The notes under the pieces: generated by a model
Database searches by the model: none
Seen by the model: only the letters and a program-made list of their open reading frames with translations
What the model was told of the DNA's origin: nothing
Position numbers and translations under genes: made by a program
Shown: positions 7,517 to 57,201 of the stretch, piece by piece
Layout: the number at the start of each line of letters is the position of its first letter
Numbering within the stretch: the first letter of the stretch is position 1
DNA from: Lycium barbarum
Taxonomy: Eukaryota > Streptophyta > Magnoliopsida > Solanales > Solanaceae
Direction of reading: 5' to 3'
NCBI RefSeq assembly: GCF_019175385.1
Contig: NC_083343.1
Location: forward strand, 51,048,457-51,112,456
Length of the DNA: 64,000 bases

Positions 7517-7528
7517 TGGTATCAGAGC
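7517..7528 (+). other. Primer binding site, element B (tRNA-iMet)
   Basis: TGGTATCAGAGC lies 4 bp after the 5' LTR end. This is the standard complement of the plant initiator-methionine tRNA 3' end used by many Ty3/gypsy elements to prime minus-strand DNA synthesis. Confidence 0.95.
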
Positions 7529-7571
7529 GGTTCATCCTCGGAATGTCTATAGGCCGTGTCTAGTAGAGTCT

Positions 7572-7607
7572 TGTTTATCGGTGTGTGGTGCACCACATCT
7601 ATAAACA
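7572..7607 (+). promoter_or_regulatory. Dimerisation-type stem-loop in element B leader
   Basis: The outer stem is TGTTTAT (7572-7578) with ATAAACA (7601-7607). The inner stem is GTGTG/CACAT (7581-7585, 7594-7598, one G-U). The 8-nt loop TGGTGCAC (7586-7593) ends in the self-complementary hexamer GTGCAC. The loop lies 58 nt after the primer site and before gag, the usual place of a retroviral dimer initiation site. Four other leaders in this window have the same form. Function is inferred. Confidence 0.65.
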
Positions 7608-7716
7608 GGAAGCTACGGGACATTTAGGATGTTACCTTTCTTTCTTACTCTAGATCGTGCGATAGAGTTGTATTATCAAGATGGTTCCTCTCTAATAAAT
7701 TTTTATGTTTACAGCG

Positions 7717-8376
7717 ATGCCTCCGAAGAAAGTGACCGCTGCCCAGAAGGGCAAATTAGCAGCAGGGGATACGAGCCAACCTAGGAGAGTTACTAGGGCC
7801 CGCGTCCAAATCATGCCCCAGGTTGTGCTCCAGTCCACGAGTTCTTCAACAACGCCAGTTCCAGAGGAACCTAGGGCAGCGACAACTTCAGGTCAGGGGG
7901 CGGCTCCATCGCCGGTCCCTGAGGTTCCAGCACCTGGGCCTCCAGCTCCTCAGTCAGGGGCGGAGGATAGAGCTATGAGAGACACAGTACAGTTTCATAC
8001 TAGATTAGTAGCGGGGAAGGCTCGCAGGCCTGGGCCAGGAGGTGATTATGTGGATAGACATGACAACTTAAGGGTTCGTGACTTCTTGACTTATAATACT
8101 CTAGAGTTCTACGGATCAAAGCCCGAAGAGGATCCCCAGGAGTTTATTCGACAGATGCAGCGTACGCTGAGGCTAATCAAAGGCTCTGAGACTGAGTCTG
8201 TCGAGATGGCCTCATACCGGTTGCGTGATGTGGCTGTTAATTGGTATGAGTCTTGGGATTTTTCTAGGGGCGAGGGTGCTCCCCCTGCGGTGTGGGCTGA
8301 ATTTGTAGAGGCCTTTCTCGGCCACTTTCTTCCTTTGAGGTGCGGCGAGCTAGGGTTGACAGATCCCTACAGTTGA
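7717..8376 (+). pseudogene. gag: Element B gag, N-terminal part
   Basis: The reading frame starts MPPKKVTAAQ at 7717. I prefer this ATG over 7705 because the MPPK start is shared with elements C and E and sits just after the predicted splice acceptor. A Pro/Ala-rich stretch of about 100 residues is followed by the retrotransposon gag core, with EFYGSKPEEDPQEFIRQM and an RLRDVAVNWYESW-type motif typical of plant gypsy gag. The frame is lost near 8340, where comparison with C shows a 1-nt deletion after the FLPL motif, and it then stops at 8374. Gag would form the virus-like particle in the cytoplasm. The piece cannot make a complete capsid. Confidence 0.9.
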
Positions 8377-9800: not shown

Positions 9801-10109
9801 TTGAAGGAGCAGTTGAGGGATTTGTTAAAGAAAGGCTTCATCAGGCCCAACACGTCACCTTGGGGAGCTCCGGTATTATTCGTGAGAAAGAAAAATGGGT
9901 CGCTACGGATGTGTATTGATTATAGGCAGCTGAACAAGGTGACTATAAAGAATAAATATCCCCTCCCTAGAATTGATGACTTATTTGACCAGTTGCAGGG
10001 TGCTAAGTGTTTCTCGAAGATAGACCTGCGGTCAGGATACCATCAGGTGCGGATAAGAGAGGCAGATATCCCAAAGACTGCATTCAGGACCCGATACGAG
10101 CACTACTAG
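9801..10109 (+). pseudogene. pol: Element B reverse transcriptase, fingers and palm start
   Basis: This continues the frame of the previous piece. It has the RT motifs [36 protein letters not shown] and [12 protein letters not shown], with the first catalytic Asp of the palm present. It ends in a TAG at 10107-10109, replacing the Glu that C and E carry in their [11 protein letters not shown] motif. Confidence 0.92.
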
Positions 10110-10115
10110 TTTAGG

Positions 10116-11873
10116 GTGATGTCCTTTGGGCTGACCAATGCCCCAGCAGTGTTTTTGGACCTGATGAACCGGGTATTCAAGCCGTTCCTAGACATATTCG
10201 TGATTGTTTTTATTAATGATATCCTGGTCTATTCACGATCAGAAGAGGAGCACGTAGATCATCTGAGGGCGGTACTTGGGGTACTCCGGCACCAGAAATT
10301 GTATGCTAAATTCTCTAAATGTGAATTCTGGTTGACTTCAGTGGCATTTTTGGGGCATATCATTGGAGTTGGTGGTCTTCGGGTGGATACACAGAAAATT
10401 GAGGCCGTGAAGACCTGGCCTAGACCTACAACACCTACGGAGGTACGTAGTTTCCTGGGATTAGCAGGGTATTATAGGAGATTTTTGGAGAATTTTGCTT
10501 CGATTGCAGCACCGTTAACGAAGTTGACTCAGAAAGCAGCAAAGTTCCAGTGGACTGATGCTTGTGAACGAAGCTTCCAGTTGCTGAAAGAAAAGTTGAC
10601 TACAGCTCCAGTTCTGACTCTCCCTGAGGGACCAGACGGTTATGCCATTTATTGCGATTCTTCTGGTGTTGGGATAGGTTGTGTATTGATGCAGCATGGT
10701 AGAGTTATAGCCTATGCCTCCCGGCAGCTCAGACAGCACGAAAGGAATTATCCTACTCATGACCTGGAATTAGCAGCGGTAATTCATGCTTTGAAGATAT
10801 GGCGATACTACCTATATGGGGTTCATGTTGATATTTATACGGACCACAAAAGCCTTCAGTACATCTTTAAGCAAAAGGAGCTGAATTTGCGACAGAGGAG
10901 ATGGCTCGAGTTGCTGAAAGACTATGATGTTGACATTCTATATCATCCTAGGAAAGCCAACGTTGTAGCCGATGCACTCAACCGTAAGTCTATGGGCAGC
11001 TTGACGGATGTACAGCCAGAAAGGAAAGAAATGGTTTGTGAAATTTATCAGCTAGCCAGTCTTGGAGTCCGTTTGGCTGGCTCTGGAGATATTGGGGTTT
11101 CTGTCCAAGAAGTTGCTGAGTCCTCTATTATGGAAGAAGTAAAGCGACGTCAATATGAGGACCCTGTTCTAGCACAGTATAGAGACACAGCCCTGGAAAA
11201 GGAGAAGACTCCATTCGAGATTACACCTGATGGGGTGCTACTACCTAAAGGCAGAATATGTGTACCTGAAGTTGCAGGGCTGCGACGACAAGTTATGGTA
11301 GAAGCACATTATGCCAGTTATTCCGTCTATCTGGGATCAACAAAGATGTATCATGACCTCAGATGCTTATATTGGTGGGATGGTATGCAAAGGGACATAG
11401 CAGAGTTTGTCGCTCAGTGCTCAAATTGCCAACAGGTTAAGATCAAACATCAGGAGCCTGGTGGGTTGTTACAGGAGATGGAGATTCCGACTTGGAAGTG
11501 GGAAGTAATCAATATGGATTTCATTACAGGTTTACTGCGCACTCTACGGAAGTATGATTCTATATGGGTTATTGTTGATAGACTGACGAAATCTGCCCAT
11601 TTATTTCCAGTCAGGACCACCTATTCGGTTGAGGATTATGCCCGGTTATATATTAAGGAGATAGTAAGACTTCACGGAGTCCCCACATCTATTATATCCG
11701 ACAGAGGTGCTCAGTTTACAACTAACTTCTGGAGATTATTTCAAGAAGGATTGGGGACCCAGGTAGGTCTTAGTACCGCATTCCACCCGCAGTCTGACGG
11801 ACAGGCCGAGCGTACTATTCAGACGTTAGAAGATATGCTATGGGCCTGTGTTATTGACTTCAAGGGTAGCTAG
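10116..11873 (+). pseudogene. pol: Element B RT palm, RNase H and integrase
   Basis: The open frame has 585 codons in phase with the pieces on both sides. The RT motif [10 protein letters not shown] is present, but the YxDD-type box reads FINDILVYS: the first Asp is Asn at 10215-10217, which should abolish polymerisation. RNase H follows ([16 protein letters not shown], the [10 protein letters not shown] region). The integrase zinc domain (H...H...CX2C near 11300-11435) and core follow with Asp 11517, Asp 11700 and Glu 11808; the last two are 36 codons apart, the D35E spacing. The frame ends at TAG 11871-11873, where homologues have Trp in GSWDDH. Confidence 0.93.
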
Positions 11874-18614: not shown

Positions 18615-18626
18615 TGGTATCGGAGC
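18615..18626 (+). other. Primer binding site, element A
   Basis: TGGTATCGGAGC lies 3 bp after the LTR end, with one mismatch to the tRNA-iMet complement TGGTATCAGAGC. Confidence 0.88.
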
Positions 18627-18673
18627 CTAGGTTACCGGTCTCATGAGTACAAGAGCAATGTCTAGTAAAGTCT

Positions 18674-18710
18674 CGTGGAATGGTACGTAGACGTCCGTAC
18701 CCATCCACGG
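18674..18710 (+). promoter_or_regulatory. Dimerisation-type stem-loop in element A leader
   Basis: The outer stem is CGTGG/CCACG (18674-18678, 18706-18710). The inner stem is ATGGTACG (18680-18687) with CGTACCCAT (18696-18704, one bulge). The 8-nt loop TAGACGTC (18688-18695) ends in the palindrome GACGTC. It lies 62 nt after the primer site, as in B, C, E and F, but with a different stem and loop sequence. A non-autonomous element would need such a signal for co-packaging; this is inference. Confidence 0.6.
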
Positions 18711-18943
18711 GAGGCTATAGGGCATCTAGGAACCTTTTCCTTCTTTCTTTCAAACCATGCTACTTCGGTCAAATTGGTATCTCAGTGGGCCCAATTGGTA
18801 TCTAGACGATTCCAATTGGTATCTACGCGCGAAAAGCAAGTCATATTCGGAATCAAGTCTAATATGTGTTGAGTATGGTCGAGTTAAGATTTTAGTGGCG
18901 AAATGATCCAAGTATGGTATGATATCACTGCTAGTTATTGCGC

Positions 18944-24474: not shown

Positions 24475-24486
24475 TAGTATCAGAGT
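24475..24486 (+). other. Primer binding site, element C (two mismatches)
   Basis: TAGTATCAGAGT lies 4 bp after the LTR. It differs from TGGTATCAGAGC by a G to A and a C to T transition, so it probably decayed after insertion. Confidence 0.9.
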
Positions 24487-24531
24487 AGTTCAGTCCTAGG
24501 AAGTGTCTACGAGCCGTGTCTAGTAGAGTCT

Positions 24532-24566
24532 TGTTTGTGGTGTGTTGCGCGCCACACTAATAAACA
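24532..24566 (+). promoter_or_regulatory. Dimerisation-type stem-loop in element C leader
   Basis: The outer stem is TGTTTGT/ATAAACA (one G-U). The inner stem is GTGTG/CACAC (24540-24544, 24553-24557). The 8-nt loop TTGCGCGC (24545-24552) ends in the palindrome GCGCGC. The loop starts 59 nt after the primer site. GCGCGC is also the loop hexamer of the well-known HIV-1 dimer site. Confidence 0.7.
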
Positions 24567-24677
24567 GGAGGCTATGGGGCATTTAGGAAAAATGACCATC
24601 TTTCATCTTAAGAAATCGTGCGATAGAGCTGTGTTATAAGATTTTCTCCTCCCTAATAGTGTGCTATGATTTCAGAA

Positions 24678-25250
24678 ATGCCGCCAAAGGGAAAAGCTAC
24701 AGCTGCCCAGAAGGGCAAGACTATGATGAAAAGGCGAGTGGAAAGAGAGCCTCCGATGAATGTAGAAGAGGACGAATCACATAATGAGGCCCCATCTAAT
24801 ACTTCCTCCACCCCACCCAATGTAGAAGAACAAGGAGGAGCTTCAGCTCCAGTTCCTCCACCGGTTGCTTTGGGTCAACAAGTGGCTGAGGTCATTCATA
24901 TATTGACACAGTTGGTTGCCGCCCAAGCACAGCGGCAGAATGTGAGTTCGAGTGATCGGGCAGCTAGTACCAGAGCTCGTGATTTTATGAGTTTGAATCC
25001 TCCGGAGTTTTTTGGGTCAAAGCCGGATGAAGACCCGCAAGGTTTTATTGATGAGATGCTGAGAACATTGAGGATTATTCATGCCTCCCAAACTGAATCT
25101 GTGGAGTTGGCATCTTATAGACTCCGAGATGTGGCGGTATTGTGGTACAATAATTGGCTAGCATCAAGAAAAGAAAATGTGCCTCCTCCTGTGTGGCAGG
25201 AATTTGTAGATGCTTTCATCTGCCATTATTTGCCACTCGAGGTCCGCTGA
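24678..25250 (+). pseudogene. gag: Element C gag, N-terminal part
   Basis: It starts MPPKGKATAAQKGK at 24678; an earlier in-frame ATG at 24666 overlaps the predicted acceptor. A low-complexity Glu/Pro/Ala region of about 75 residues is followed by the gag core: FMSLNPPEFFGSKPDEDPQ, the SVELASYRLRDVAVLWYNNW motif and QEFVDAFICHYLPLEVR. It stops at TGA 25248-25250, where a CGA Arg codon is expected, and then continues in the same frame. Confidence 0.92.
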
Positions 25251-46754: not shown

Positions 46755-46888
46755 TAATCTTGACGTTTCATCTTGGATTTCTTCTGGGGCCTGAAATAAA
46801 TGTGGGTGCTTGGCCTTCATATTTTATTCCGCCTCCCAAGTCATCTCGTCCCGGTTGTTATTTCTCCATAAGACCTTAACTGAGGTTA
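46755..46888 (-). pseudogene. pol: Element E chromodomain, C-terminal piece
   Basis: It resumes the chromodomain broken by F with VKVLWRNNNRDEMTWEAE, followed by a TAA where homologues have Glu, then MKAKHPHLFQAP. The duplication GGTTA at 46884-46888 marks the F insertion. Confidence 0.88.
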
Positions 46889-48998
46889 TGTCACGACCCG
46901 ACTAGGGGCCGTGACGAGTACCCGGTACTTGTACCGAGCACCCCTTATCTTGTCTCATATCCTTATTACTAAGTGGGCCGTATGACCTATACCATTTTTT
47001 TTTTTCTGTTACTTAACATTAATAATTGTAGCATAGTTATGAACATAGGCGAACAACCTTTACTAACACATTATACATCGACTAGGACTGCTAAAAGTAC
47101 AAAACATTTAACTGTACACATCTGTCTACGAGCCTCTAGACATAATACACATATACACAAGAAGGGCCGAGCACTGTCACGCCCGAATATATATATATAC
47201 ACAAAATAGTACCAATAAACAGTGGCTCCGGAATGACTGGAGCACTCTCTGTGAACCGCTGGTGAAGCTTCTAAGAACCGGACCCGTCTACCTGCTTACC
47301 TGCGCGGCATGAAACGCAGCGTCCACAAGAAGGGACGTCAGTACGAATAGTGTACCGAGTATGTAAGGCATGAAAATAGTAAAGAGAGGAATATAAATTG
47401 CAACCAATACATAATGAAATCATAGGACATATAGAGCGATAATAGAGTAACCTGTACATGTATGTGCCACCCAGGGCAGATGCCATACATGCTAAGTTGT
47501 CTTTAAAAAAAACATTTCGTGTTCATATATGAAAATAAAACATAATATATATTGCCGAGGCGTCGGCAGCCGATCCTTTTAACCATGAATGTGTGTAAAT
47601 ATCCCGCGTCCGGGCATCCCGCGTCCGGGATGATATCAAGTCAAATACGGCTACATGTACCGTGTGTAACCCCGCGTCTATAGCGCTCTGCCCTGCTCCC
47701 TTCTTCCCCGTGTACATATACATATATACATATATACCATAGCATGCAAGCGAGCCCAAAAAGAAGCTATAACGTTATCGGAGTGACGTAAGGTCGGTAG
47801 CCTCCGATTACATTATGAAATCGTCATGGTCGTCAGGTCTCACCTTGAGGGAACAACAATTATAAGGCGAGACTATCCATAAAGGAAAACATCATGAGAG
47901 AACATAGAACAGGATCATAAGGTATCGTTTCATGTACTTTGGAATCTTTAATCATGGAAGCATCATTGTCGTATTCATCATATGAACATTTTCTTCCCGG
48001 ACATCATCCATGTCATTGTAGAACATACTCATCGTAATTGACAAAAAAACGTACTTTGCCACAGACTTTGTTTTGGGAAAATGCGGGCGTTTGGAAAACC
48101 TTTTGAGCTATTGGGGAGAAGATCATACCTTAGGGTCAATAGATTAGTTAAACAACTATTGTTTAGTAGTCGGAATAGTAATCTAAAAGTTTCCCTTGAT
48201 TATAGTACGAAAATAAGCTAAATGGAACAATAGGAGGGAATTTGGGAATAGTGGGCCCACCTCGAGTCAAATGAGGCGGCGTACTAAATTTTTATATGTT
48301 ATATGTCATGGCGTTACTTTTCGGGGTTTTACGGTAATCGAGTCCTCTTTATGCAAGTTCTAGAGGGCTAGGAAGGTTTTTTCAACATTTTGCACAATTT
48401 CTAGTTCAATTCTACTTAAGGAAAAAGGAGAAACTTTAGGTGCGGAATTCTGGGGAATAGAGTTGTCCCCGAGGCTCGTGTCCAACTTAATACGTCTAAG
48501 ACATGCCATAGAAGGAAGGGTGAAGCCTTACATACCTCTTTCCGCTCCTTTGGCTATCCCGAATTCAACTCGCAAATCCGCCAAAATCTACAAATTGGTC
48601 AAGTTTACCAAACATGATTAGTGCCTTTAGAATTGAATTCTTAAAATGATACTTGGCTACTGAAATTTCGGCACCACTTCCCCTGTAAAATACTCCATCC
48701 CACCAAGTTCAACTTGGCCAATTTCAATCAACAACAATCCGGGAATTCAACCCGGCCAAACTAACAACACAATATCAACACAATACTAAAAATTTCGTAT
48801 TCATTCCAAGTTACATTATAACAACTCAATCAATATACTACTTCCTTCAAAACCTTCCAACTCCAATAAGAACATTAAAAACATTATAATTCATATACCA
48901 ACAACACCATACTAACAACATTATCTTCCATACATGCAAGAACATAGTATTCAATTTTAAATACTATAACCGCAAGTCTCCAACGTCTTCAACTTCAA
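46889..48998 (-). repeat. Element F 3' LTR (truncated at its 5' end)
   Basis: It matches 49292-51400 closely. Homology stops at about 48998, where gag sequence begins. It holds H1 at 47320-47337 and a CAG/GTAAGC donor-like site after it. Confidence 0.94.
47320..47337 (-). promoter_or_regulatory. LTR hairpin H1, element F 3' LTR
   Basis: Minus strand CGTCC(CTTCTTGT)GGACG, then CAGGTAAGC. Confidence 0.6.
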
Positions 48999-49071
48999 TA
49001 TTTACCGGTGACTCCCATTCAGTCCGCCTTTCCGCTACCGTCTTGCCCTTCTCGGCGGCTGTCGCTTTCAT
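48999..49071 (-). pseudogene. gag: Element F gag, first 24 codons
   Basis: On the minus strand the ATG is at 49071-49069, reading MKATAAEKGKTVAERR and on to the deletion junction at 48999. It corresponds to the MPPKGKATAAQKGK start of C and E. The remaining gag and all of pol are missing. Confidence 0.85.
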
Positions 49072-49202
49072 CTTCGCAGGTATCGCTGAAAATATAACAC
49101 CGGATTAGGAAGAAGGAAAAACCCTTACTATAGCTCTATCGCACGATCTAGAATACAAAGAAGGTCATATTTCCTAAATGCCCCGCAACCTCCTGCCTAT
49201 AA

Positions 49203-49220
49203 GTGTGGCGCGCTACACAC
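49203..49220 (-). promoter_or_regulatory. Dimerisation-type stem-loop in element F leader
   Basis: Minus strand: stem GTGTG/CACAC and 8-nt loop TAGCGCGC with palindrome GCGCGC (49215-49208). An outer stem CCTGTTTAT/ATAGGCAGG with two G-U pairs encloses it. It lies 61 nt after the primer site. Confidence 0.7.
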
Positions 49221-49275
49221 CCATAAACAGGACTCTACTGGACACGGCTCGTAGACAAACCCGTAGGACCGAACT

Positions 49276-49287
49276 GCTCTGATACCA
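49276..49287 (-). other. Primer binding site, element F
   Basis: Minus strand TGGTATCAGAGC, a perfect tRNA-iMet complement, 4 bp from the LTR end. Confidence 0.95.
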
Positions 49288-49291
49288 CTTC

Positions 49292-52200
49292 TGTCACGAC
49301 CCGACTAGGGGCCGTGACGAGTACCCGGTACTTGTACCGAGCACCCCTTATCTTGTCTCATATCCTTATTACTAAGTGGGTCGTATGACCTATACCATTT
49401 TTTTTTCTGTTACTTAACATTAACAATTGTAGCATAGTTATGAACATAGGCGAACAACCTTTACTAACACATTATACATCGACTAGGACTGCTAAAAGTA
49501 CAAAACATTTAACTGTACACATCTGTCTACGAGCCTCTATACATAATACACATATACACAAGAAGGGCCGAGCACTGTCACGCCCGAATATATATATATA
49601 CACAAAATAGTACCAATAAACAGTGGCTCCGGAATGACTAGAGCACTCTCTGTGAACCGCTGGTGAAGCTTCTAAGAACCGGACCCGTCTACCTGCTTAC
49701 CTGCGCGGCATGAAACGCAGCGTCCGCGAGAAGGGACGTCAGTACGAATAGTGTACCGAGTATGTAAGGCATGAAAATAGTAAAGAGAGGAATATAAATT
49801 GCAACCAATACATAATGAAATCATAGGACATATAGAGCGATAATAGAGTAACCTGTACATGTATGTGCCACCCAGGGCAGATGCCATGCATGCTAAGCTG
49901 TCTTTAAAAAAAACATTTCGTGTTCATATATGAAAATAAAACATAATATATATTGCCGAGGCGTCGGCAGCCGATCCATTTAACCATGAATGTGTGTAAA
50001 TATCCCGCGTCCGGGCATCCCGCGTCCGGGATGATATCAAGTCAAATCCGGCTACATGTACCGTGTGTAACCCCGCGTCTATAGCGCTCTGCCCTGCTCC
50101 CTTCTTCCCCGTGTACATATAAATATATACATATATACCATAGCATGCAAGCGAGCCCAAAAAGAAGCTATAACGTTATCGGAGTGACGTAAGGTCGGTA
50201 GCCTCCGATTATATTATGAAATCGTCATGGTCGTCAGGTCTCACCTTGAGGGAACAACAATTATAAGGCGAGACTATCCATAAAGGATAACATCATGAGA
50301 GAACATAGAACAAGATCATAAGGTATCGTTTCATGTACTTTGGAATCTTTAATCATGGAATCATCATTGTCGTATTCATCATATGAACATTTTCTTCCCT
50401 GACATCATCCATGTCATTGTAGAACATACTCATCGTAATTGACAAAAAAACTTTCTTTGCCACAGACTTTGTTTTGGGAAAATGCGGACGTTTGGAAAAC
50501 CTTTTGAGCTATTGGGGAGAAGATCATACCTTAGGGTCAATATATTAGTTAAACAACTATTGTTTAGTAGTCGGAATAGTAATCTAAAAGTTTCCCTTGA
50601 TTATAGTACGGAAATAAGCTAAATGGAACAATAGGAGGGAATTTGGGAATAGTGGGCCCACCTCGAGTCAAATGAGGCGGCGTACTAAATTTTTATATGT
50701 TATATGTCATGGCGTTACTTATCGGGGTTTTAGGGTAATCGAGTCCTCTTTATGCAAGTTCTAGAGGGCTAGGAAGGTTTTTTCAACATTTTGCACAATT
50801 TCTAGTTCAATTCTACTGAAGGAAAAAGGAGAAACTTTAGGTGCGGAATTCCGGGGAATAGAGTTGTCCCCGAGGCTCGTGTCCAACTTAATACGTCTAA
50901 GACATGCCATAGAAGGAGGGGTGAAGCCTTACATACCTCTTTCCGCTCCTTTGGCTATCCCGAATTCAACTCGCAAATCCGCCAAAATCTACAAATTGGT
51001 CAAGTTTACCAAACATGATTAGTGCCTTTAGAATTGAATTCTTAAAATGATACTTGGCTACCGAAATTTCGGCACCACTTCCCCTGTAAAATACTCCATC
51101 CCACCAAGTTCAACTTGGCCAATTTCAATCAACAACAATCCGGGAATTCAACCCGGCCAAACTAACAACACAATATCAACACAATACTAAAAATTTCCGT
51201 ATTCATTCCAAGTTACATTATAACAACTCAATCAATATACTACTTCCTTCAAAACCTTCCAACTTCAATAAGAACATTAACAACATTATAATTCATATAC
51301 CAACAACACCATACTAACAACATTATCTTCCATACATGCAAGAACATAGTATTCAATTTTAAATACTCCAACCGCAAGTCTCCAACTTCTTCAACTTCAC
51401 AAGATTATTATGCATTCATTAACAACATAGTATCCGAAACACAACGACAACCAAAACTCTAAATAAAATTGGCTCATCTTCTTTCACCACTTAACACATA
51501 TATACGGCTATACATATAATATACACTATACGGCCACCATCCTACATACACCACTACAACCTTTCCAAAATCATCCAACTTTCATTATCCACATAACATT
51601 CACAACAATATCAACCAAATACTAAACAAAATAATTACAACATAATTTCTACACACACACATATATCACACGGCCACACACACCCACTTCCATATTCTTA
51701 CCAATTTCACTTATTTTTGTACACTACAACATGCAAAATCTTCCATAACATATAAGAAAGATTTAAACCTTACCTTTTCTTCAATTCTTCACTTGGCTAT
51801 ATATGTTGGTAGCTTGAAAGAATATAAGTTTTTCTTGCTCTAACAACAACTCCACTTTGTTAAGGACCCTTTAATTAGTAGAATACAATTTTTGGAGGAA
51901 TTTTTCAAGGTTTCTTATGGAGTTTTTTTTTTACTATGGCTGAAATGGCCCTAGGAGTTTTCTCCTTCTTTCTTTGTTCTTCAAGTTCTTGAAAATTCTA
52001 GAGAGGTTTATGAAGATAAGATGACTTTGTCATCTTTTTATTTAACTTATTTAAAAGCCATGTGGGCTTAAGCCCACTAAGAAGTGGACGACCACTTGGC
52101 CCAAATGGTCAAGCCCACACATTTGTTTTTGTTCTTGCCACTTATGAAAAAAAATTATTTTCCAAATTCCAAATTTACCCTTTGTCTTCCTCCATAATTC

Positions 52201-56431: not shown

Positions 56432-57000
56432 ATTTAAAAATATGTCCGCTCTAGCTCAACGGACTTCGGGTGACAAATAATGGTGAATGAAGGCATCTAC
56501 AAATTCTTGCCAAATCGGAAGTGGTGCATTCTCTTTTCTTGATGATATCAAATTATTATACCATAAGACCACCACATCCCGGAGTCTATAAGATCCTCAA
56601 CATTTCATCGATAAAACCTTGCGGGTCTTTATTCGGCTTTGACCCAAAAAACTCCGGACGATTCAAACTCATGAAATCATGGGCTCTAGTACTAACTACC
56701 CTATCACTTGAACCCGAACTCTACCGCTGTGCTTGGCCGGCAACTAACTGTGTCAAGAGATGGATAGCCTCGGTCATTTGTTGACCCGAAGTAGCCGGGG
56801 GAGGAACTGGAGGCATAGGAGCTTGAACCGAAGCCCCTTCTTGTTCTCCTATGCTAGGCGGAGTAGGAGAGGTGCTAAGCGGAGTAGGAGAGGTACTCGG
56901 CGGAGTAGGAGAGGTACTAGATTGGCGGCTCCCTTTCTACTCACCTTTTCATCGTAGTCTTGCCCTTCTGGACGGCTGTAGCTTTTCCTTTTGGCGGCAT
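56432..57000 (-). pseudogene. gag: Element E gag, N-terminal half
   Basis: Minus strand: the ATG is at 57000-56998 (MPPKGKATAVQKGKTTMK), followed by a TGA after codon 18. The gag core FMSLNRPEFFGSKPNKDPQ is near 56640. A deletion of about 40 bp just before the YRLRDV-type motif near 56590 removes the SVELAS part. A short repeat of CGGAGTAGGAGAGGTACT occurs at 56870-56930. Confidence 0.87.
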
Positions 57001-57123
57001 TTCTGAAATCATAACACTATTAGGGAGGAGAAAATCTTATAACATGGCTCTATCGCACGATCTCATAAGAAGAAAAATGGTCATTTTTTCTAAATGCCCT
57101 GTAGCCTCTTGTTTGTTAGTATG

Positions 57124-57131
57124 GCACGCAA
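57124..57131 (-). promoter_or_regulatory. Dimerisation-type loop in element E leader, palindrome decayed
   Basis: Minus strand: stem GTGTG/CATAC (57136-57132, 57123-57119, one G-U), with loop TTGCGTGC 59 nt after the primer site. GCGTGC differs by one transition from GCGCGC. E also has lost catalytic residues, so loss of constraint is expected. Confidence 0.6.
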
Positions 57132-57189
57132 CACACTACAAATAAGACTCTACTAGACATGGCTCGTAGACACTTCCTAGGACTGAACT

Positions 57190-57201
57190 GCTCTGATACC
57201 A
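57190..57201 (-). other. Primer binding site, element E
   Basis: Minus strand TGGTATCAGAGC, perfect. Confidence 0.95.

Follow-up and report, generated by a model that had tools for sequence, protein, structure and literature searches.

A putative kissing-loop dimerization site in the leaders of chromodomain Ty3/gypsy elements of Lycium barbarum

In chromodomain Ty3/gypsy elements of Lycium barbarum, the leader between the primer binding site (PBS) and gag carries a long hairpin tipped by a hexamer that is palindromic in most leaders, which we interpret on computational grounds as a putative kissing-loop dimerization site of the genomic RNA, with a probability of about 0.72. The computed support consists of a predicted structure, covariation, palindromes at the level of families, and retention of the hairpin in carriers without recognizable gag. 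We infer that the hairpin acts as RNA: the leader would fold into a ladder that displays a self-complementary hexamer in an 8-nt apical loop, and two genomic RNAs of one family would pair loop to loop via this hexamer. Such pairing would start a dimer that is packaged and then reverse-transcribed. Selection would hold the hexamer palindromic and GC-rich while leaving its identity free, and families would drift between palindromes by paired changes.

RESULTS

Leader hairpins of the five window elements

The window, i.e., the whole stretch of DNA analyzed, comprises 64,000 nt of the 1.67-Gb L. barbarum genome (contig NC_083343.1, positions 51,048,457 to 51,112,456, forward strand). It contains nested Ty3/gypsy elements, with element B inserted in the 5′ long terminal repeat (LTR) of element A according to the repeat table. 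A domain scan of B found RVP_2, RVT_1, RT_RNaseH, Integrase_H2C2, rve (26.8 bits, below the 32.6 cut-off), SH3_Tf2-1, and Chromo (25.2 bits, cut-off 25.1); with its domains in gypsy order and a C-terminal chromodomain, B is a chromodomain Ty3/gypsy element (chromovirus). Element C has RVP_2, RVT_1, and RNase H, together with a 77.9% match to the C-terminal SH3/chromo piece of B. The initial annotation of this DNA used the label Del/Tekay; the class used here is chromodomain Ty3/gypsy, for which domains were examined in B and C. At gathering scores, Rfam gave no match within the 64-kb window.

The loop letters and coordinates that had been given for elements A, B, C, E, and F were exact in all five, and four of the five hexamers are indeed palindromes, namely GTGCAC in B, GCGCGC in C and F, and GACGTC in A (Table 1). 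The hexamer of E, GCGTGC, is one C-to-T transition away from GCGCGC. The loop starts 69 (B), 73 (A), 70 (C), 72 (F), and 70 nt (E) from the first base of the PBS, which in its exact form we take to be the complement of the 3′ end of the initiator Met-tRNA.

Table 1. Positions in the window of the primer binding sites, ladder hairpins, apical loops, and neighboring leader features
Feature	Position	Strand	Remarks
PBS of B	7517..7528	+	Exact, TGGTATCAGAGC
Ladder hairpin, leader of B	7546..7624	+	Covariance-model match, 93.1 bits
Apical loop of B	7586..7593	+	TGGTGCAC, hexamer GTGCAC; center of a 14-nt palindrome
CTAA...TTTCAG leader end	7690..7719		
Gag-region open frame of B	7705..8376	+	3′ of the hairpin; second in-frame ATG at 7717
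PBS of A	18615..18626	+	1 mismatch
Ladder hairpin, leader of A	18648..18726	+	71 bits; most diverged, several compensated pairs
Apical loop of A	18688..18695	+	TAGACGTC, hexamer GACGTC
PBS of C	24475..24486	+	2 mismatches
Ladder hairpin, leader of C	24506..24583	+	93.8 bits
Apical loop of C	24545..24552	+	TTGCGCGC, hexamer GCGCGC
CTAA...TTTCAG leader end	24651..24681		
Ladder hairpin, leader of F	49177..49255	-	93.3 bits; upper stem of 17 bp unbroken
Apical loop of F	49208..49215	-	TAGCGCGC, hexamer GCGCGC
PBS of F	49276..49287	-	Exact
CTAA...TTTCAG leader end	56995..57025	-	
Ladder hairpin, leader of E	57093..57170	-	89.3 bits
Apical loop of E	57124..57131	-	TTGCGTGC, hexamer GCGTGC
PBS of E	57190..57201	-	Exact

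The apical hairpin proved to be the tip of a ladder of about 79 nt and 26 bp, which the initial annotation had not described. From the outside in, it consists of segments of 6, 4, about 10, and 6 bp, the last of which closes the 8-nt loop; a 1x1 mismatch separates the first segment from the second, a 2x2 purine-rich internal loop the second from the third, and, in some leaders, a small bulge or mismatch the third from the fourth. The loop has a 2+6+0 layout, with two nucleotides 5′ of the hexamer and none 3′ of it. Folding z-scores of 101-nt stretches were -4.3 (B), -3.0 (A), -3.1 (C), -3.5 (F), and -1.5 (E). Among 8,000 dinucleotide shuffles per leader, 55 to 84 (about 1%) gave a comparable palindromic hairpin loop, defined as a stem of 5 bp or more whose 6- to 9-nt loop contains a palindromic hexamer; the real minimum-energy folds of A, C, and F have such a hairpin and those of B and E do not. 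The minimum-energy fold of B places an extra G-C pair inside the 8-nt loop, and its ensemble closes the 8-nt loop with P of 0.72. A stable hairpin between PBS and gag, as expected of a retroelement dimerization initiation site, is predicted.

Some further features of these leaders were observed. About 30 nt after the ladder lies a second short conserved motif, GATCGTGCGATAGAG (window positions 7653 to 7667 in B), which occupies the same place in most leaders and, with few changes, is common to many gag-bearing and gag-less carriers, A being the most diverged there. In many gag-bearing copies the leader ends with CTAA...TTTCAG (or TTTACAG) directly before the gag ATG. This ending resembles a branch point followed by a 3′ splice site, and splicing could remove the hairpin from the translated RNA. 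In element F (window positions 46886 to 51399), LTRs of 98.3% identity enclose only 291 bp, in which lie the PBS, the hairpin, and a gag scrap. We considered F as a minimal mobile element and do not claim that it moved in its present form, since inspection by eye showed neither a purine tract 5′ of the 3′ LTR nor a target duplication of 5 bp.

Conservation and covariation of the ladder

Our findings on the leaders come from this one genome and from 24 leaders, 5 of the window and 19 from 240 kb sampled by position (18 copies in twenty 10-kb stretches and 1 in four further stretches). They were identified by their likeness to the window leaders, a procedure that passes over dissimilar ones. Each of the 20 PBSs with at most 1 mismatch in the window and the first 20 stretches is part of a leader of this type, and most sites with 2 mismatches lie outside such leaders; one carrier, L019b, has lost its PBS.

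When 23 leaders were used to build a covariance model, it matched all 24 at 71 to 100 bits, which for those 23 holds by construction, L029 alone being independent of the model. The remaining 23 matches listed, at 16 to 40 bits, were the opposite strands of the same places. The 8-nt loop is closed with P above 0.5 in 20 of the 24 leaders and is not closed in the ensembles of L011, L021, L022a, and L025. Related leaders therefore keep the hairpin, a check that the initial annotation had proposed together with a covariation test by R-scape, in place of which we counted covariation against shuffles. In the 23 leaders, both the stem and the loop covaried. Over the 26 pairs of the ladder, 94.3% of 593 cells were paired, and double changes occurred at 8 pairs and in 13 cells, compared with shuffled means of 2.6 and 3.1. 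On each of five measures, no shuffle out of 500 reached the value of the real leaders, and pairing fell to 38 to 57% when the register was slid. RNAalifold recovered the ladder unaided, with 22 pairs, 8 of them with double changes. Compared with the other leaders, A has compensated stem changes as well as a different palindrome.

The loop, read as self-pairs 1:6, 2:5, and 3:4, was 92.8% paired versus 74.6% in shuffles. The paired (compensatory) variation inside the palindrome amounts to 13 double-change cells versus 4.4 in shuffles, with a covariation of 0.559 versus 0.211; none of 500 shuffles was as high on any of these three measures. Pair 2:5 was C-G in 11 leaders, U-A in 8, A-U in 1, and another combination in 3; pair 3:4 was G-C in 15, C-G in 4, G-U in 3, and another in 1. 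The measures that resist relatedness, i.e., double-change pairs (2 versus 1.5 shuffled, 260 of 500 shuffles as high) and further pair types (5 versus 4.6, 291 of 500), were not beyond shuffles, and they have little power since there are only three pairs. When the loop register was slid, 78% still paired at -2 and 70% at +3.

Palindromic states of the apical hexamer

A GC-rich, self-complementary apical hexamer was found in register in 17 of the 24 leaders, in a shifted position in another (TGCGCA in L014), and as the commonest state in all five of the families examined below. The 17 fall into five kinds: GCGCGC in seven (C, F, L009, L028, L019a, L029, and L021), GTGCAC in seven (B, L024b, L026, L027a, L020, L022a, and L019b), and GACGTC (A), GCCGGC (L027b), and GTCGAC (L011) in one each. 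The seven leaders without an in-register palindrome have GCGTGC (E, L024a, and L017), GCCGAC (L010), GCGCAC (L014), GCGCGT (L022b), or a degenerate hexamer (L025). All five palindromes have the form G-N-N-N-N-C, with G-C at 1:6, G-C or C-G at 3:4, and A-U only at 2:5. The 5′ loop dinucleotide of the 24 leaders is TT, TA, AA, TG, or TC, and the 8-nt loop has no unpaired base on the 3′ side.

In the 2+6+0 loop, the axis of the palindrome lies 1 nt off the axis of the stem, and the palindrome stops at the borders of the hexamer in 15 of the 17 palindromic leaders, being longer in B (14 nt) and L011 (16 nt). The palindrome therefore does not simply prolong the inverted repeat. We considered whether L011, which can be folded as an axis-centered 16-nt palindrome, weakens this case and rejected it, as the rest of the L011 family has an ordinary stem and the 16-nt palindrome is thus a private mutation.

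Palindromic states require no fewer than 6 changes on a leader tree that was built with the tip excluded and in which only 2 of 21 inner branches have good support. We simulated neutral drift on this tree from four ancestors, with CpG rates left at normal or raised 5- or 10-fold (12,000 runs, with only CpG decay boosted). Drift gave a mean of 0.9 to 3.2 palindromic tips of 24, compared with the 17 observed. Of all runs, 9 reached 17 or more palindromic tips and 4 reached five kinds or more; no run did both.

To see whether the rarer palindromes had arisen by accident, we fetched, for each of five leaders, 20 of the 40 genome matches listed. GTGCAC was present in 19 of the 20 copies of the B type, which occurs at 40 or more places at 98% identity or higher (B included), GTCGAC in 18 of 20 of the L011 type, and GCCGGC in 19 of 20 of the L027b type. 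The A type had GACGTC in 12 of 20, the rest being single changes (GACATC in 4, GATGTC in 2, AACGTC in 1, and GACGTT in 1). The L024a type, whose query has the imperfect GCGTGC, had GCGCGC in 9 of 20, GCGTGC in 4, GTGTGC in 2, and five others in 1 each (one of them gapped). GCGTGC, which we had considered the main counterexample (L024a, L017, and E), was therefore dropped as such. In total, 77 of the 100 fetched copies had a perfect palindrome. The proposed count of palindromic hexamers in related leaders thus gave a palindrome as the commonest hexamer in all five families. As the query includes the loop and copies were found by likeness, the fractions within families are not independent tests; what carries weight is that each of five families has a palindrome of its own as its commonest state, in one case in disagreement with the query copy. 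Within the L024a type, conservation is lower in the hexamer (mean column identity 0.86) than elsewhere in the leader (0.97), which fits either CpG decay or weak constraint. We also observed six L011-type leaders on one strand within G000:C7:36004453-36037470, which includes L011; the last four are about 3.9 kb apart, and the cluster is a local tandem array of leader-bearing units.

Carriers with and without gag

In 14 of the 24 carriers, a gag match starts 157 to 197 nt after the ladder start. A translated search, which could miss diverged genes, found no gag there in the other 10 (A, F, L026, L010, L028, L017, L019b, L027b, L014, and L011); the length searched was only 1.8 kb in L028 and 1.1 kb in L017, and F retains a short gag-like start. 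Gag-less interiors are shared between different chromosomes, with 81% identity over 1.9 kb between L028 and L014 and 74% over 1.3 kb between L010 and L027b. Retention of the hairpin in carriers without recognizable gag is compatible with a signal for trans-mobilization.

Predicted loop-loop pairing

We computed duplexes between loops, one loop per state, as free-duplex rather than kissing-complex energies. Each loop paired with itself at -7.5 to -12.1 kcal/mol and with the others at -0.4 to -3.8 kcal/mol, with one exception, GTGCAC with GCGCGC, at -7.1 kcal/mol, close to the -7.9 kcal/mol of GTGCAC with itself. The suggestion that loop identity sets partner choice agrees with these predictions for most pairs, in which self-pairing is favored, the GTGCAC/GCGCGC cross-pair being the exception.

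Searches outside this genome

Viral contigs, searched with two leader patterns and one reverse transcriptase query, yielded nothing usable. Genome contigs yielded four Ty3/gypsy-related loci in bacterial records, with an exact PBS and a leader in L035 only. This leader, the only one from outside this genome, had no covariance-model match; its PBS is followed immediately by a long hairpin with a nonpalindromic UGUU loop. A frame of L035 that was translated contained many stops and was set aside. L033, L034, and L035 are plant-type Ty3/gypsy sequences in small contigs filed as bacterial (Robertmurraya, a Microbacteriaceae metagenome-assembled genome, and Labilibacter), which are probably contamination. 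The fourth, L036 (positions 10001 to 10303), is a 60% match to residues 40 to 140 of the reverse transcriptase piece in a 1.16-Mb Mangrovicoccus contig, at a locus of 63% GC.

DISCUSSION

The dimerization hexamer of HIV-1 has three prevalent forms, among them GCGCGC and GUGCAC, in accordance with the initial annotation, and it needs central G-C pairs and few A-U pairs (PMC5874298) as well as flanking purines (PMC7357161). The plant hairpin resembles HIV-1 SL1 in lying between PBS and gag and in having a GC-rich apical palindromic hexamer with central G-C pairs and few A-U pairs, GCGCGC and GUGCAC being shared. It differs in that its 8-nt loop has two nucleotides 5′ and none 3′ of the hexamer, whereas HIV-1 has conserved flanking purines, in its longer ladder (26 bp), and in the coexistence of five palindromes in one host genome. 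Purines conserved on both sides of the hexamer, as in an HIV-1-type (lentiviral) site, were not found in the 24 leaders. The interpretation of these structures as putative dimerization loops is partly supported, by the structural, covariation, and palindrome tests within this genome, and the term "retroviral-type" is loose, holding for a palindromic loop between PBS and gag and not for the 2+6+0 layout or the flanking purines.

Among retrotransposons, the palindromic DS/PAL6 site of yeast Ty3 was proposed in 2024 to start genomic RNA dimerization; its palindrome, CUGCAG at nt 391 to 396, is the last of six, three of which are placed in GAG (PMC11381356). Ty3 belongs to the same superfamily and likewise has a palindromic hexamer in the apical part of a 5′-end hairpin, but the plant palindrome is found some 70 nt from the first base of the PBS, within the leader and outside the translated sequence, rather than at nt 391 to 396. 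A kissing-loop model of dimer initiation exists for the RNA of Ty1 (PMC5454406), also an LTR retrotransposon but a yeast member of the Ty1/copia superfamily. Barley BARE2, which is unable to make Gag, is said to keep conserved dimerization and packaging signals (PMC3735527); it is likewise a plant LTR retrotransposon with signals kept without Gag but belongs to Ty1/copia, the word "kissing" is absent from that paper, and its passages on these signals give neither a structure nor covariation. Fungal GalEa copia elements have a conserved hairpin directly after the 5′ LTR, which their authors contrasted with a dimerization site (PMC5445492). In line with the initial annotation, which knew of no description in Del/Tekay elements, we found no earlier account of a dimerization loop in plant Ty3/gypsy leaders among the papers listed from one open-access library, subscription papers being mostly outside this search.

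The conserved structure may serve a function other than dimer initiation. In a packaging or Gag-binding hairpin, the ladder would be what matters and the palindrome would serve another kind of self-association (extended duplexes or cytoplasmic RNA condensates) rather than the start of a dimer for reverse transcription. Conservation of the whole 26-bp ladder beyond its tip, and its retention by carriers without recognizable gag, would suit a packaging signal, and the dimer site of HIV-1 itself lies within the packaging-signal region (PMC516450). We nevertheless consider this alternative unlikely, as a loop that only binds Gag needs neither self-complementarity nor paired switching of the hexamer. 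A loop that has its partner elsewhere on its own RNA, in circularization or a pseudoknot, would likewise need no self-complementarity, and the paired changes inside the hexamer maintain palindromic states; this has only a very small probability, even though GC-rich loops, such as this one, often pair in cis. Palindromes also suit dimeric proteins, and GACGTC resembles what we take to be the core of plant bZIP sites. Yet five palindromes in which symmetry alone is kept do not suit one protein, and the position within an RNA loop whose stem shows compensating changes points to RNA, making the binding site of a symmetric host DNA- or RNA-binding protein scarcely credible.

Alternatively, the palindrome may have no RNA function and arise incidentally from a DNA inverted repeat or from methylated-cytosine decay. 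The ladder is an inverted repeat, which the model also matched on the other strand, two CpG transitions turn GCGCGC into GTGCAC, and the imperfect copies show signs of CpG decay (GACATC, GATGTC, GCGTGC, and GTGTGC). In plants, CHG methylation decay could link GCCGGC to GTCGAC, and it lies outside our CpG-only simulation. On the other hand, GACGTC, GTCGAC, and GCCGGC cannot be reached from GCGCGC by CpG decay because transversions are needed, and the simulations with 5- and 10-fold CpG rates gave a mean of about 1 to 3 palindromic tips of 24, not 17. The offset of the palindrome from the repeat axis and the constancy of GTGCAC among the B-type copies also speak against it, so that this explanation is already strained and, in our judgment, very improbable.

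Family-specific pairing would be a bolder, unproven extension of the dimerization reading, which we put forward tentatively and hold to be doubtful. The hexamer might serve as a recognition code, in which the palindrome of each sympatric family (GTGCAC, GACGTC, GTCGAC, GCCGGC, or GCGCGC) would bias copackaging and template switching toward its own kind. Gag-less families might then be mobile via a compatible leader, and a paired change of the palindrome might found a lineage isolated from recombination with its parents.

LTR retrotransposons often make up the bulk of a plant genome, and the pairing and choice of their genomic RNAs appear, from our searches of one open-access library, to be little studied. 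A compact, covarying hairpin with family-specific self-complementary loops offers a concrete and cheap test of RNA dimerization in plant Ty3/gypsy elements, and makes it possible to test whether related families that share a nucleus keep apart from or take advantage of one another when their RNAs pair. If true, our reading would bring the chromodomain elements of plants under the kissing-loop idea, alongside retroviruses, Ty1, and yeast Ty3, by either deep conservation or repeated invention.
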